Source: Oerskovia douganii
GTDB lineage: Bacteria > Actinomycetota > Actinomycetes > Actinomycetales > Cellulomonadaceae
Length of the DNA: 38,072 nucleotides
Direction: 5' to 3'
Assembly: GCF_015142735.1 (NCBI RefSeq)
Contig: NZ_JACSPN010000005.1
Span: 1 to 38,072 of the forward strand
Positions within the stretch are counted from its first letter, which is position 1; each line of letters starts with the position of its first letter. A model generated the notes under the pieces. It was given only the letters and a program-made list of their open reading frames with translations, searched no databases and was not told the DNA's origin. Positions 13,494 through 18,610 of the stretch are shown here, one piece after another. The position numbers and the translations under genes were made by a program.

Positions 13494-13955
13494 GTGCCCA
13501 AGGTTCCTGTCCTCGCCCTGACCGTGAGCGCCGCCGTCGGGCTGCTCCTGACCGGGTGCGGGTCCGACCCCGCACCGGACCTCGACGAGACCGTCCTCGC
13601 CGCCGTCGACGCCGCAGGCGACGCCGACGGCGAGCTCGACCTCATCAGCACCACGCACTTCGACTGGCAGAAGGCCGTGATCGTGTGCCCGGGCGACGAC
13701 ACCACCGAGGTGGCCCAGGCCGCGGGGACCACCGACGGCCCCGTCCAGGGCGAGCTCCCCGAGACGGTCGACGTGGGAACCGGCTACCTCGTGTTCGTCA
13801 ACGACAACCAGGTGACGCAGACCGCGGAGCTGCGGCTCGCGCGGGCCGACGTGTGCTCGCAGGAGCTCCCGGTCGCCGACCGTGTCCTGAGCCCGGGCAC
13901 GGCCCTGCGCGTCGAGCCCGGCACCGGTGACGGCTGGGTCGTGACGGCTGGCTGA
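13494..13955 (+). CDS. Small lipoprotein of unknown function
   Basis: A 153-residue secreted lipoprotein. A short basic start, a hydrophobic stretch (VLALTVSAAVGLLLTGC) and the lipobox LTGC at about residues 18-21 mark it for lipidation and anchoring on the outer face of the membrane. The mature part (LISTTHFDWQKAVIVCPGDD, then VGTGYLVFVNDNQVTQ) contains two further cysteines that could form a disulphide. I do not recognise the family. The GTG at 13494 has no Shine-Dalgarno site but sits 6 nt after CATACT (13482-13487), the typical layout of an actinobacterial leaderless gene. Three imperfect copies of CGCTGCCGAG at 13971-13980, 13988-13997 and 14004-14013 follow the stop and run into the palindrome at 14010. 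Confidence 0.8.
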   Translation: MPKVPVLALTVSAAVGLLLTGCGSDPAPDLDETVLAAVDAAGDADGELDLISTTHFDWQKAVIVCPGDDTTEVAQAAGTTDGPVQGELPETVDVGTGYLVFVNDNQVTQTAELRLARADVCSQELPVADRVLSPGTALRVEPGTGDGWVVTAG

Positions 13956-14009
13956 GCCGGGCCTGGGCCGCGCTGCCGAGCTGGCCCCGCTGCCGAGCTG
14001 CCCCGCTGC

Positions 14010-14064
14010 CGAGAACGGGGTTGAGGTCGTCATCTGACGCATGACGACCTCAACCCCGTTCTCG
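14010..14064. repeat. 53-55-bp palindrome, copy 1 (overlaps the DUF559 stop codon)
   Basis: Positions 14010-14033 are perfectly complementary to 14041-14064 (24 bp) around a 7-nt loop, CTGACGC. The core 14012-14064 matches copy 2 (15152-15204) at 51 of 53 positions; the only differences are the first and last loop bases. It lies between the convergent lipoprotein and DUF559 genes, and encodes the last 11 codons and the stop of the latter. It can act as a terminator, but identity of the full stem sequence between copies points to a dispersed repeat family rather than chance terminators. Confidence 0.9.
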
Positions 14065-15034
14065 AGCGCGCAGAACCTCGTGCTCGGTCCAGGAAGCTCC
14101 TGATCTCGGCTCCGACACGTCCCTGCGTCGCCAGGTCTCGAGCCGTGAAGCGCAGCAGTGCCGCACCCCGCGAGGCGACGAGGCGGTTCTGCCGCAGCCG
14201 GTCCGCGAACAGGGCCTCAGGCGATCCGTGCACCCCTGCACCGTCGATCTCCGCGATCAACCACGCCCCGTCCGGGAGGCGCCAGCCCAGGTCACCCCGG
14301 GCGAGGAACTCCCCGGCCTCTCCCGTCAGCACGACCTGCAGGTCGTCCGGCGGGACACCTGCATCGAGACGGTCGAGCCGGGCGAAGGTCTCGAGCGGGG
14401 ACTCGGCCCGTGGGTCGCCGAGCTCCCACCACGAGTGGGTCCGGGCGACGCCTCGACGGCCTCGAGCCAGGTCGTGCGCCCGGTCGAGGCCTCCGGCGTC
14501 GAGCAGCCGACCGTGCAGTGCACTGTCCATCAGGGCCACGGCGTAGCGGCGCGACACCTCCGGAACGGCCTGGGCGAGGGCCCAGTCCGGCGTGGCGACG
14601 TACCGCTCGCCCACCCGGTGGACCGTCATCCCGTCGTCGAACTGCCGGAGCACGATGCCCTCCCTGGACTCGGTCGCACGGCCACCCGGGAGGGCGGCCT
14701 GCGGGGTGATCCGCAGCGGCAGCCCCTGCACCCCGAGCAGGGCCAGCGCACACGGTCCGACGGCGATCGCGTCCGGGCCGAACGCCAGGAGCGCCGCCCA
14801 GGCTGCGCGTCGACGCCGGTGGTCGGGCGCGCCGGGCACGTCGCGCCGGTCGGGGCGGACGGGGTTCGTGTCGTAGACGCCGCGGGTCACCCGGCTCCAG
14901 CGTCGTTGCTCGACGAGGCGGGAGCGTCGGTGCGAGCGCACCTCGTTCGCGTCGCACTGCGCTGCCGACACCAACCCCTCCTGGCGGTACGCGACGGTCA
15001 GGAGGGGCTCGGGGAGCGGCGACAGAGGGCGCAT
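14030..15034 (-). CDS. AbiEi-like winged-helix/DUF559 nuclease-fold protein
   Basis: A 334-residue protein. Residues ~8-55 (EGLVSAAQCDANEV...RRWSRVTRGVYDT) look like the N-terminal winged helix found in AbiEi-type antitoxins and related actinobacterial proteins. The C-terminal ~110 residues match DUF559, a Vsr-like variant of the restriction-endonuclease fold: ESPLETFARL, GDLGWRLPDGAWLIAEIDG, DRLRQNRLVASRGAALLRFT. The acidic residues of ESPLE, GDLGW and AEIDG are the likely metal site. Many such proteins occur singly in actinobacteria, and their role is not established. The ATG at 15034 has no clear ribosome binding site. The last codons (SRTGLRSSCVR) and stop are encoded inside palindrome copy 1, and copy 2 lies 118 bases upstream of the start. 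Confidence 0.8.
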   Translation of the reverse strand: MRPLSPLPEPLLTVAYRQEGLVSAAQCDANEVRSHRRSRLVEQRRWSRVTRGVYDTNPVRPDRRDVPGAPDHRRRRAAWAALLAFGPDAIAVGPCALALLGVQGLPLRITPQAALPGGRATESREGIVLRQFDDGMTVHRVGERYVATPDWALAQAVPEVSRRYAVALMDSALHGRLLDAGGLDRAHDLARGRRGVARTHSWWELGDPRAESPLETFARLDRLDAGVPPDDLQVVLTGEAGEFLARGDLGWRLPDGAWLIAEIDGAGVHGSPEALFADRLRQNRLVASRGAALLRFTARDLATQGRVGAEIRSFLDRARGSARSRTGLRSSCVR

Positions 15035-15151
15035 CGCGGCATCACAGCACGGGTCACGAGCGGCCCGACCGTGGGACGAGAGCCTCTGTGGACGGACCGG
15101 TCCGCCCGGCGTCCTGTGGATCGTCGTCGAGAACGAGGTTCCCCGCGGTCC

Positions 15152-15204
15152 AGAACGGGGTTGAGGTCGTCATTTGACGAATGACGACCTCAACCCCGTT
15201 CTCG
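15152..15204. repeat. 53-bp palindrome, copy 2 (downstream of the copD/ctaG gene)
   Basis: Arms 15152-15173 and 15181-15202 are perfectly complementary (22 bp) around TTGACGA. It begins 12 bases past the stop of the CopD/CtaG gene (15217, minus strand), where it can terminate that gene. It matches copy 1 at 51 of 53 positions. A decayed half-copy, CGAGAACGAGGTT at 15128-15140, differs by one base from the arm of copy 1. The remaining sequence between the DUF559 start and this repeat (15035-15127) shows no other feature. Confidence 0.9.
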
Positions 15205-15216
15205 GCGACGAAGGGA

Positions 15217-17415
15217 TCAGTCCTTCGTGTCCTGCTCCGCCATCTTTGCGAGCATCCGGTTGTACTCGTCCATCTCGACGTCGCCGTCCTTGTCCACGCG
15301 CCGGTCGCGGCGTCGGGCGTCCTTCTCGTCGGACCGCGCCCACATGACCGCGACGACGATCGCGAGCGAGAGCGTCGGCAGCTCGCCGATGCCCCACGCG
15401 ACGCCGCCGCCGCGCTGCTGGTCGGCGATCGCGCTGATGCCCCAGTCGTGCCCCATGAGCCCGAACCACTCGGGCACGAGGAGCTGCGTCCCGGTCGTGA
15501 GCGACACCCCGAAGAACGCGTGGAACGCCATGGTGACGAGCAGGAGCAGGAGCCGCTGGGGCCAGCCGGGTCGGCGCGGGCCCGGGTCGATCCCGACGAG
15601 CGCGTTGGCGAACAGGTACCCGGCGAGCGTGAAGTGCAGGAGCATCACGAGGTGCCCGACGTACGTCGTCATCGCGAGCTCGAACGCCGGGGTGTAGTAG
15701 AAGACGATCATCGACCCGGCGAAGTTGATCGCGGCGACGATCGGGTTGGCGAAGAACTGCCCCCACCTCGAGGTCACGAGCGCCAGGACCCACTCGCGCG
15801 GGCCCCGCGAGCCGTCCTTGCGCACGGGCACGGCCCGCAGCAGCAGGGTCACGGGCGCGGCCAGCACGAGGAAGATGGGCACGACCATCGCGAGCACCAT
15901 GTGCTGGACCATGTGCGCGCTGAACAGCACGTGGCCGTACACCGCGGGCCCACCGTTGGTCACCCAGAACAGCACGAGGATCCCCGCGCACCACGAGACG
16001 GTGCGGCCCAGGGGCCACTTGTCGCCGCGCCTCGCGAGCCGCCGGACCCAGCGCAGGTAGACGACGAGGGCCGCGACGCACGCGAACGCGGGCAGCAGGT
16101 CCCAGCGCCACTCGCTGAACCAGCGGCCGAGGTCCGGCTCGGGGGGCAACGGGTGCCCGGTCACGAGCTCGGCCGGGGTCGGGAGCGCGATCGGCTCGTC
16201 CGGCACGGGCGGCGCCGTGGAACCGAGCGCGACGGCCACGCCCGACACCGCGCCCATGACGAGCAGCTCGACCGCGACGAGCCGCCAGAACAACCAGGTC
16301 GCGGCCTTCTCGGCGGCGGCCTTCCCCGGGGCAGCGCCGTTCGTCGCAGAGCCCTTCCCGACGGCGGAGCCCCCCGCCGTCCCCGGCCCGCCTGCGGCGG
16401 TGGTCGTCCGGGCGGCACCGCCGGCCGTGCCCGTCCTGCCGGTGGCCCCCGCCTGGAGCCGGCGCACGACGAGCTCGCGGTGCGCGAACCCGATCGCGCC
16501 GAGCACGACGATGAGGCCGACCTTGACGAGGATGAGGACCCCGTAGTCGGTGCTCAGGCCGTCGACGCCGCCGAGGCGGATCCAGGCGTTCGCGACGCCC
16601 GAGACGGCGACCGCCACGAAGGACCAGCCCGCGATCGCGGAGTAGCGCGAGACGGACGAGGCGAACGCGGCCCGGTCGAGGCCGCCGCGCAGCCGCACGA
16701 TCGCGAGCACGCCGAGCCCACCGATCCACAGGGCCGCGCCGCCGAGGTGGAGGAACATCGAGGAGATCGCGAGCTCGTGGCTCGCGGCGCCGGCGGTGTG
16801 ACCCGTGTTGGCCTGGAACGCGAGGGCGGTCAGCGCGAGCAGCGCCGTCCACAGGGCACCGGTCGCGGTGCGGACCGCGAGCGCGCACGCCGAGGTGACG
16901 GCGGCGACGATCACGACGCCGAGCAGGCTGCGGCCGAGCGAGATCTGGGTGACGAACGCTGCGAGCTGCTCGCCGAACCCGACGCTCGTGACGGGCATGC
17001 TCGACAGGACCGAGTAGCGCAGGATCGTCTGTGCCACGGTGAGCACCGCCCACACGGCCGAGGCCGCGCCCGCCACGCCGAGGGCCTTGCGCAGGGGCGG
17101 GCCGGCCGGGAGCACGCAGGCCGCGAGCACGAGCGACCCGATGGTCAGGGCGATCGCGAGCTCGGTCAGGGTCGTGGTGATCGGCAGACCCCAGCGGGCG
17201 ACCACCCCGGGGTCGGCGAACCCTTCGAGCGCCCGGAAGGCGCCGGAGAAGGCGCCCGCCGCGACGACCGAGAGGATCGCCACGACCACGGCCGCGGGCC
17301 CGGCGAGCACGAGCCACCAGGGGTTGCGCGGGTGGTCGGCGGCGTCCCGGCCGGCGGGCTGCGCGGTCCGGTCGGGCGCGGTTCCTGGGGTGCTGCGGGG
17401 GGCGGTGGCGGTCAC
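15217..17415 (-). CDS. CopD/CtaG fusion: copper resistance and cytochrome c oxidase assembly protein
   Basis: A 732-residue polytopic membrane protein. The N-terminal half (residues ~20-310) is CopD-like, with many transmembrane helices and histidines such as NTGHTAGAASHELAISSMFLHLGG. The C-terminal half (~430-700) is CtaG of the caa3-oxidase type, with HVLFSAHMVQHMVLAMVVP, LHFTLAGYLFANALVG and VTMAFHAFFGVSL supplying the histidine-rich helices. CopD moves copper across the membrane and CtaG helps deliver it to cytochrome oxidase, so a fusion is logical and common in actinobacteria. A Gly/Ala/Thr-rich linker (about 330-370) joins the halves. The GTG at 17415 was chosen because TACCCT (17427-17422) lies exactly 6 nt before it, indicating a leaderless transcript; a longer frame to 17619 looks non-coding. 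Confidence 0.9.
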   Translation of the reverse strand: MTATAPRSTPGTAPDRTAQPAGRDAADHPRNPWWLVLAGPAAVVVAILSVVAAGAFSGAFRALEGFADPGVVARWGLPITTTLTELAIALTIGSLVLAACVLPAGPPLRKALGVAGAASAVWAVLTVAQTILRYSVLSSMPVTSVGFGEQLAAFVTQISLGRSLLGVVIVAAVTSACALAVRTATGALWTALLALTALAFQANTGHTAGAASHELAISSMFLHLGGAALWIGGLGVLAIVRLRGGLDRAAFASSVSRYSAIAGWSFVAVAVSGVANAWIRLGGVDGLSTDYGVLILVKVGLIVVLGAIGFAHRELVVRRLQAGATGRTGTAGGAARTTTAAGGPGTAGGSAVGKGSATNGAAPGKAAAEKAATWLFWRLVAVELLVMGAVSGVAVALGSTAPPVPDEPIALPTPAELVTGHPLPPEPDLGRWFSEWRWDLLPAFACVAALVVYLRWVRRLARRGDKWPLGRTVSWCAGILVLFWVTNGGPAVYGHVLFSAHMVQHMVLAMVVPIFLVLAAPVTLLLRAVPVRKDGSRGPREWVLALVTSRWGQFFANPIVAAINFAGSMIVFYYTPAFELAMTTYVGHLVMLLHFTLAGYLFANALVGIDPGPRRPGWPQRLLLLLVTMAFHAFFGVSLTTGTQLLVPEWFGLMGHDWGISAIADQQRGGGVAWGIGELPTLSLAIVVAVMWARSDEKDARRRDRRVDKDGDVEMDEYNRMLAKMAEQDTKD

Positions 17416-17611
17416 CCGACCAGGGTAGGCGGCTCGCGGTGCATCGCGGTATTCCCGCGGTCCGCTGCGTTCCTCGCCCGCGACGGGCCCGCCGTGGCCC
17501 GAGCGCCCCGACCGGGCGTGCGTCCGCGCTGGCATACTGGGCCGGGTTCGCAACGGCGTCCCCTCCGGGGCGAGGCGCCCTGACCGCCCCGAGCCCGCGA
17601 AGGACCCCACG

Positions 17612-18610
17612 ATGGCCACAGGTCACGGCAGCATCTCCACGACGGACCTGGACCGCGCGGGCCACCTGCTCAAGCGGGTCGAGCAGGTGTTCGACCAGCG
17701 CGTCGTCGGGCAGGAGGCCCTGCGCACGGCCCTGGTCAGCTCGCTCCTCGCCGGTGGCCACATCCTGCTGGAGTCGGTCCCGGGCCTCGCCAAGACCACC
17801 GCGGCCCAGACGCTGGCGGCGGCGATCGACGGCTCGTTCCACCGCATCCAGTGCACGCCGGACCTCATGCCCAACGACATCGTGGGCACGCAGATCTACA
17901 ACTACGCGACCGGGGCGTTCACCACGCAGCTCGGGCCCGTGCACGCGAACCTGGTGCTGCTCGACGAGATCAACCGGTCGAGCGCCAAGACGCAGTCGGC
18001 GATGCTCGAGGCCATGCAGGAGAAGCAGACGTCGATCGGCGGCGAGAACTTCCCGCTGCCCTCGCCGTTCATGGTGGTCGCGACGCAGAACCCCATCGAG
18101 GAGGAGGGCACGTACGTGCTGCCCGAGGCCCAGATGGACCGCTTCCTCATGAAGGAGGTGCTGACCTACCCTGCACCGGCGCAGGAGCTGGAGATCCTGG
18201 ACCGCATCTCGACGGGCCGCATGACGGCGCCCATCACGGCCGAGCCCGTCAGCATCGAGGACGTCGTGTTCCTCCAGCGCCTGGTCGACGACGTGTACGT
18301 CGACGAGTCGATCAAGCGGTACATCGTCGACCTCATCAACACGACGCGCCTGTCGGGGCCGCGGCCCGTCCCGGGCCTGGCGCAGCACGTGCGCGTCGGG
18401 GCGAGCCCTCGCGGCGGGATCGCGCTCATGCGTGTGGGCCAGGCGCTCGCGATCCAGGCCGGGCGGGCGTTCGTCGTGCCGGACGACATCAAGGCCGTGC
18501 GCTACGCGGTCCTGCGCCACCGCCTGGTGCGCACGTTCGACGCGCTCGCGAACGACGTCCCGCCCGAGCAGCTCATCGACGCCGTGTTCGACGCGGTCCC
18601 CACCCCGTAG
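17612..18610 (+). CDS. MoxR family AAA+ ATPase
   Basis: A 332-residue MoxR-type AAA+ ATPase, thought to act as a chaperone that activates VWA-domain partners. The P-loop is LLESVPGLAKTT with Lys61, Walker B is LVLLDEINRSSAKTQSAMLEAM, sensor 1 is VVATQNPIEEEGTYVLPEAQ, and the C-terminal lid region is present. The first P-loop glycine is replaced by Ser55 (usual form GVPGLAKT). The ATG at 17612 has GAAGGA 7 nt upstream. A possible -10 element, CATACT, lies at 17533-17538 in the 196-bp gap that separates it from the divergent CopD/CtaG gene. It is the first gene of a six-gene unit with DUF58, VWA and TPR proteins, the standard MoxR set. Confidence 0.95.
   Translation: MATGHGSISTTDLDRAGHLLKRVEQVFDQRVVGQEALRTALVSSLLAGGHILLESVPGLAKTTAAQTLAAAIDGSFHRIQCTPDLMPNDIVGTQIYNYATGAFTTQLGPVHANLVLLDEINRSSAKTQSAMLEAMQEKQTSIGGENFPLPSPFMVVATQNPIEEEGTYVLPEAQMDRFLMKEVLTYPAPAQELEILDRISTGRMTAPITAEPVSIEDVVFLQRLVDDVYVDESIKRYIVDLINTTRLSGPRPVPGLAQHVRVGASPRGGIALMRVGQALAIQAGRAFVVPDDIKAVRYAVLRHRLVRTFDALANDVPPEQLIDAVFDAVPTP

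Follow-up and report, generated by a model that had tools for sequence, protein, structure and literature searches.

The best-described systems with which the locus analysed here can be compared are the REPtrons, in which REP or REPIN repeats go together with a RAYT (TnpA-REP) protein. The likeness extends to three traits: the repeats are short, dispersed extragenic palindromes, the protein gene is bracketed by its cognate palindromes, and the repeat types are lineage-specific, all of which also holds here. The systems differ in the enzyme, which is a Y1 HUH transposase in REPtrons and a protein with AbiEi-like and Vsr/DUF559-like parts in Oerskovia, and in the repeats themselves. That is, REP palindromes measure 20-40 bp and carry a GTAG (or CGTC) tag at the hairpin foot, whereas the palindromes of AbiEi-nuclease genes have a median length of about 60 nt in our set of homologues, and the Oerskovia A1 consensus has the foot GCCGAG...CTCGGC, in which no tag could be seen by eye. 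Unlike those of REPtrons, moreover, the Oerskovia palindromes lie at gene 3′ ends, and different types occupy the same sites in different species. Y1/RAYT transposases (PF01797) were matched in 0 of 7 Oerskovia genomes at E <= 0.001, with 5 of 14 control genomes positive, and RAYT-driven REPs were rejected on that ground. According to the available part of their description, CGTC repeats, a class of REPs, have no dedicated transposase (PMC3733652), and the accessible sections of three papers name tyrosine transposases or no enzyme at all for REPs (PMC3733652, PMC8266576, PMC12306157).

Two further systems share part of the arrangement. In TIRtrons, with their TIRYT proteins, inverted repeats stand on either side of a gene, and some of these repeats recur in moderate numbers across the genome, as here, but their proteins are tyrosine transposases, and it is in the Oerskovia unit that the terminal repeat is itself a palindrome (PMC3733652, portions of the text). 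The AbiEi antitoxins, e.g. AbiEi of S. agalactiae and Rv2827c of M. tuberculosis, combine a winged helix with a C-terminal domain, as does the Oerskovia protein (P0001). In the published excerpts considered, each binds 23-bp inverted repeats of its own, AbiEi two repeats with 3 bp between them and Rv2827c pairs spaced by 13 bp, with no binding of either protein to the sites of the other (PMC7319586). The palindromes around the P0001 gene have a similar geometry. Unlike these antitoxins, P0001 is fused to a nuclease-like domain, its putative sites are dispersed at gene 3′ ends, and a Pfam scan of three neighbouring genes, which gave a CtaG/CopD protein, an S9 peptidase and a protein with no match, showed no AbiEii nucleotidyltransferase toxin. 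The Vsr, DUF559 and MTES_1575 nucleases and TnsA have a PD-(D/E)XK-type core with conserved acidic residues, which is also predicted in P0001. Vsr-like homing endonucleases are grouped with these Vsr-type PD-(D/E)XK nucleases. An association with cognate palindromes, present for the P0001 family, was not found in the literature for any of them: the top matches on DUF559 or on palindromes and REPINs, by title and start of abstract, contained no such association, in a body of text with subscription papers and bioRxiv mostly outside it. Since no such association came up there, we regard the system as new, with a function that is predicted only.

The palindrome-bracketed unit and its protein

The window, that is, the whole 38,072-nt stretch of Oerskovia douganii DNA that was analysed, contains the following features (a dot indicates that no strand is assigned).

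14008..15206 (.) whole unit, 1,199 bp, with outer tips GCCGAG...CTCGGC, delimited by 79-nt inverted terminal repeats
14012..14064 (.) palindrome copy 1, type A, containing the 3′ end of the nuclease gene with its stop codon
15152..15204 (.) palindrome copy 2, type A, in the gap that separates the nuclease gene start from the stop codon of the upstream gene
14074..14086 (.) inner half-arm adjoining copy 1
15128..15140 (.) inner half-arm adjoining copy 2
14030..15034 (-) gene for a 334-aa protein, P0001, an AbiEi-like DNA-binding domain fused to a probable Vsr/DUF559-like nuclease
14861..15034 (-) residues 1-58, AbiEi-like winged helix, from AbiEi models and fold, limits by judgement
14450..14860 (-) residues 59-195, AbiEi C-terminal-like domain, from the PADLOC AbiEi match at residues 10-188, limits by judgement
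14075..14422 (-) residues 205-320, probable PD-(D/E)XK/Vsr-like nuclease domain, from weak fold matches and conservation, limits by judgement
15217..17619 (-) upstream neighbour, CopD/CtaG-type membrane protein, the syntenic flank in 7 of 7 Oerskovia genomes
13494..13955 (+) downstream neighbour, convergent, no Pfam match; about 6-8 kb away from the unit in six Oerskovia relatives

As originally described, the two palindromes share 51 of their 53 bases, the only differences being the first and the last base of the loop, and have 1,087 bp between them, and copy 1 encodes the last 11 codons and the stop codon of the 334-aa gene. The half-copy at 15128-15140, which had been described as decayed, is real, but a mirror-image half also lies at 14074-14086, so that each end of the unit has a palindrome as its outer and a half-arm as its inner part. 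In the window, the half-arm was matched 4 times when up to 3 mismatches were allowed; 100 shuffles gave 0.03 matches on average. The unit thus carries terminal inverted repeats like those by which transposable elements are recognised, 14008-14086 and 15128-15206 forming 79-nt arms that are 87% complementary. The layout is broadly alike in the four other type A orthologues of Oerskovia, some arms being degenerate. Inner half-arms are not general, however: of 73 genes put through a crude search, 16 had one upstream and 18 had one downstream. In type A orthologues the palindrome includes the stop codon of the nuclease gene (window 14030-14064), thereby adding a low-confidence tail to the protein, and in type B genes the stop codon comes before the palindrome.

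The AbiEi-like DNA-binding part that had been proposed for the protein is supported by models and by fold. PADLOC matched AbiEi at residues 10-188 (E 1.8e-7), and the AlphaFold2 model (mean pLDDT 89, with most of the palindrome-coded tail below 50) had an AbiEi antitoxin, 6y8q, as its best fold match (E 5.6e-5). Apart from a second AbiEi chain, the further fold matches had E values of at least 0.07; they include the Vsr-like RAP module of FASTKD4, Rv2827c and TnsA. Pfam AbiEi_4 matches 31 of 46 relatives and not P0001 itself. The proposed DUF559/Vsr-like nuclease fold is rated probable: P0001 has no match to DUF559 (PF04480) and reaches MTES_1575 at E 0.068 only, and the assignment of its C-terminal part to the Vsr-like nucleases follows from the weak fold matches, the conservation of motifs and weak Pfam matches among the 46 family members (MTES_1575 in 5, DUF559 in 3). 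The conserved residues of this domain are E211, E215, D248, E262, D264 and H269, the likely catalytic ones being chosen by judgement; E211, D248, E262, D264 and H269 are at least 90% conserved. With a dN/dS of 0.14-0.20 among five orthologues, the nuclease gene is under purifying selection. No protein domain concentrates covariation with palindrome type; the winged helix is the most variable domain, yet does not stand out in this respect.

Dispersal and turnover of the palindromes in Oerskovia

The half-arm, again with up to 3 mismatches, occurs 58 times in the whole 4.25-Mb genome against 1 match for a reversed control, and at least 34 type A palindromes, some of them degenerate, were collected. 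That more exist is evident from a further count, itself limited to 150 scored candidates per genome and including both strands. Their stems covary, with changes on both sides in 16 of 28 pairs, and the observed values were reached by none of 500 shuffles. The preference for gene 3′ ends that was to be looked for is present: 26 of the 34 copies lie within 30 bp of one, compared with 25% of random non-coding positions, and 32 are closer to a 3′ than to a 5′ gene end, compared with 46%; the median distance to a gene 3′ end is 17 bp. The gene ends are those of an ad hoc gene caller. Window copy 1 is the only one of the 34 with its midpoint inside a gene. The earlier suggestions that the repeats are terminators spread by gene conversion, or that they brought the gene in as a cassette, were partly right, given the position of the copies behind genes and the pairs that enclose genes other than the nuclease gene. 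A random scatter with no link to DUF559 genes, the outcome that would have spoken against the original prediction, was found by half: 32 of the 34 copies flank no nuclease gene. Only 2 homologues were found in the genome. In other genera, on the other hand, the majority of homologues have a matching palindrome of their own at both ends.

Two loci of this genome deserve mention in their own right. A 142-aa gene with no homology to the nuclease lies between two near-identical type A palindromes 0.6 kb apart (C11:51462-52110) and is perhaps a cassette carried by them; at C6:65745-67763, about 2 kb between two palindromes contain no called gene, although genes with an unusual composition may have escaped the gene caller there. 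Dispersal of the type C palindrome, which belongs to the paralogue in the same genome, was not seen in the 250 kb scanned, where paired arms occur around its gene only and elsewhere there are single matches with 2-3 mismatches. Type B gave no clean count, as the reversed control pattern scores too, probably owing to a shared core. Chance was rejected as the origin of the repeats, half-arm matches being far above reversed control and shuffles and flank matches above shuffles. A known Rfam RNA was likewise rejected, with miRNA-type matches only, none of which reached its gathering score and which may arise from any long hairpin, as was tRNA-linked integration, with no tRNA within the window. Ordinary unrelated terminators were set aside in view of the common sequence and the paralogue-specific pairing.

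The nuclease gene is found at the same place in all seven Oerskovia genomes, with flanks that are mostly 80-94% identical at the DNA level. Genomes G003 and G006 hold at that locus a B gene, whose product has 53-54% identity to P0001, together with B palindromes, and we read this A/B difference as an exchange of gene and palindromes as a unit. In the genome studied here, a stretch of about 6 kb present next to the unit in other species is missing, so that its gene-end palindrome is joined directly to the flank of a further palindrome site, which holds a single palindrome in four genomes and none in G004 and G006. Elsewhere, type A in one species corresponds to type B or a third type in another at seven orthologous sites (C11:63003, C15:57933, C16:42907, C16:46114, C55:52053, C55:53656 and C55:78112); it is kept in G002 and/or G004 at C11:79260, C11:98591, C55:76667 and C55:98051. 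At C11:102223, G004 has no palindrome, and at C11:54703 the same genome has about 0.9 kb extra, probably a gene, between two A palindromes. No target-site duplication was visible at the palindrome-less alleles of two sites, and these alleles may be deletions. Types A and B are also present in genomes where only the other gene type was found, and the four Oerskovia palindrome types have the outer tip GCCGA in common.

Several further arrangements were observed in the relatives. The third type (GAGAAGTGAGTAGATGCCCC; GAGAAGTGAGTAGATGCCCCTGATC...) occurs at several places in G004 and G002 (L334, L336, L338, L340), two of which hold type A in the window genome; no partner gene was found for GAGAAGTGAGTAGATGCCCC. 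Type B units in G004 and G002 (L084, L342) have two or three tandem half-arms behind the palindrome, every 22 nt, and look like a small array of putative binding sites. Beside the nuclease gene of G001 and G003 (L096/L098) there is about 1.35 kb extra, ending in the same half-arm and palindrome and placed between the nuclease unit and the sequence that directly follows the unit in other species. In G001, G004 and G005, another family of long palindromes, CGAGGTAG(A/G)ACGTG..., is placed alike in all three, some 9-10 kb from the unit on its downstream side. Plasmids and phages gave no match at E 1e-8 and 1e-5; a plasmid- or phage-borne element was therefore rejected.

Pairing of gene and palindrome across homologues

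All eight homologues in the seven Oerskovia genomes are flanked upstream and downstream by palindromic sequence, which in B genes is imperfect on the 5′ side, and the palindrome type follows the gene: A in five genomes, B in G003 and G006, and C at the second gene copy of the genome studied here. In profile searches, 101 of 200 genomes of the same family (E <= 1e-30) and 67 of 297 genomes of the order (E <= 1e-20) contained homologues, 53 of the latter lying outside the family. The loci compared are a non-random sample (30 + 60 + 20), the latter two portions being hand-picked, stronger matches first and spread over genomes. Upstream and downstream flanks match in 76 of 104 distinct genes, a set that includes a few named loci possibly outside the family and some near-duplicate pairs (e.g. 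the loci of G111 and G098), and do not match in the other 28; the threshold of 18 was the maximum of 416 mononucleotide shuffles, and 4.1% of 1,500 randomly paired flanks exceeded it. Matching flanks were found in 34 of 47 loci of the order sample and in 27 of 37 outside the family, leaving 10 of those 37 with none. A palindrome is present on both sides in 18 of these 27, the two at L303 being unlike each other, and the remaining ones have matching flanks with no palindrome listed on both sides. Among control genes, taken from palindrome-rich loci of the genome studied here only, 4 of 169 had matching flanks. A distant homologue in G003 that surfaced in the later order-wide search is also bracketed by a matching pair.

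The pairing is specific to each gene lineage. In 22 genomes with two or three homologues, a gene's own flanks match in 37 of 46 cases and cross pairs in 1 of 52. Among 91 genes with strong flank matches, the fraction of alike palindromes is 0.00 (rounded) in the 1,146 gene pairs below 40% protein identity and 1.00 in the 21 pairs above 80%. If such pairing is general, the palindrome beside a distant gene is expected to be dispersed in that genome or its kin only. Searches with four palindromes, picked for clear pairs, gave 0 to 4 matches per genome for the reversed-pattern controls. The G017-type palindrome reaches 32 arms in its own genome and none in the five others searched, and that of genus g7 has 46 to 158 arms in 5 of the 6 genomes of the genus and 0 in three others; the sixth, G036, has the gene and 0 arms of the genus pattern. 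The G333/G294-type palindrome has 15, 29 and 13 arms in G333, G294 and G307 and at most 3 in three genomes outside the genus. Two more genomes of the genus, G281 and G206, carry genes but have no more than 3 and 2 arms, respectively. In the weakest case, the G365 type, there are 15 arms, 4 of them at the gene, with 4 in the sister genome G463 and 0 to 3 elsewhere.

Mechanism, alternatives and meaning

With the structure, dispersal, pairing, orthogonality and turnover of the palindromes as its ground, the reading that we favour, and consider reasonably probable, is that of a two-part, genome-dwelling element resembling REP/RAYT but built on an unrelated enzyme, in which each gene lineage has its own palindrome. 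Points against this reading are the absence of a visible target-site duplication, the palindrome types present where only the other gene type was found, the few or missing arms in G036, G281 and G206, the lack of dispersal of type C in the 250 kb scanned, the homologues with no matching flanks, the limited occurrence of inner half-arms, the missing DUF559 match of P0001, the even spread of covariation over its domains and the negative plasmid and phage searches. The AbiEi-like domain would read the protein's own palindrome, made of a pair of inverted arms of about 22-30 nt that in some cases are accompanied by half-arms, and the Vsr/DUF559-like nuclease domain would nick or cut there. Repair or recombination could then copy single palindromes to other sites and, occasionally, the whole palindrome-gene-palindrome unit. 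The copies would persist chiefly right behind gene 3′ ends, and the shared outer tips could serve exchange between palindrome types. Each gene lineage would evolve its own palindrome sequence, so that paralogues in one genome are orthogonal. By analogy with the sites of AbiEi and Rv2827c, whose geometry the palindromes resemble, each protein may bind its own palindrome through its AbiEi-like part. We infer that the protein would recognise or process the hairpin, as had been hypothesised, and that the cutting, the copying reaction and the spread of the palindromes would be driven by it. The view of the repeats as a conserved, dispersed and apparently mobile element tied specifically to the DUF559-like gene is borne out by their dispersal, their pairing and the exchange at the locus.

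A homing system would account for part of the same evidence. That is, the nuclease would cut competing palindromes or palindrome-bearing gene ends, and the gene unit would be copied by repair between shared palindromes, the scattered palindromes being by-products or landing sites. The alternation of A and B units at one locus and of A, B and the third type at the same intergenic spots would fit this, as would the outer tip common to the four Oerskovia types and the TnsA and Vsr-like folds weakly near the model. Yet the gene lies between two whole palindromes rather than within a split site, the scattered copies collected have no nuclease gene except for the window pair, and swaps of single palindromes require no copying of the gene, so that we hold homing to be unlikely. 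Still less probable, in our estimation, is that the protein is an AbiEi-like autoregulator with the palindromes as operators, the scattered copies as its regulon and the nuclease part as a relic. AbiEi-type proteins do bind paired 23-bp inverted repeats within the promoters of their own genes, according to the part of the study at hand (PMC7319586), and a palindrome lies upstream of the gene, at a median of 112 nt before the start codon (73 genes). The scattered copies, however, are at 3′ ends and not at promoters (in 32 of 34 the closest gene end is a 3′ one), another copy stands at the 3′ end of the nuclease gene itself, and the likely catalytic residues are conserved.

There is very little to recommend two remaining explanations. 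The palindromes could be terminators spread by general gene conversion or by another enzyme, with the gene as a passenger, in keeping with their long stems and their median distance of 17 bp from gene 3′ ends; this would leave unexplained both the bracketing of one gene family across families and the paralogue-specific sequences, and we think it highly improbable. Equally slight are the chances of a restriction-like nuclease directed against foreign DNA, with the palindromes as self marks or decoys: the N-terminal part does match AbiEi models of a defence library, but no obvious partner is encoded by the three adjoining genes scanned (CtaG/CopD, S9 peptidase and the gene with no match).

In terms of a two-part element with its own palindrome per gene lineage, AbiEi-nuclease genes with their private dispersed palindromes look like a counterpart, not described until now, of the REP repeats with their transposases. 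We give somewhat better than even chances to the broader proposal that the REP-transposase principle was invented a second time, independently, by a large actinobacterial family of AbiEi-nuclease fusions that multiply and move private palindromes among gene ends, where those of rival enzymes would displace each other at shared sites. Having no kinship with RAYTs but palindromes of its own in many genera, such a nuclease family would show how REP-like repeats can arise without RAYTs, and the AbiEi-nuclease system would account for the gene-end palindromes of these actinobacteria. It supplies many orthogonal enzyme-site pairs, with which the mechanism of spread is directly testable, and gives a lead to the function of AbiEi/DUF559-like fusions, whose role has been unknown. 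If the proposal is true, many natural pairs of protein and DNA specificity would be on offer, and the gene-end palindromes of many high-GC genomes would be a battlefield of orthogonal selfish or domesticated elements.
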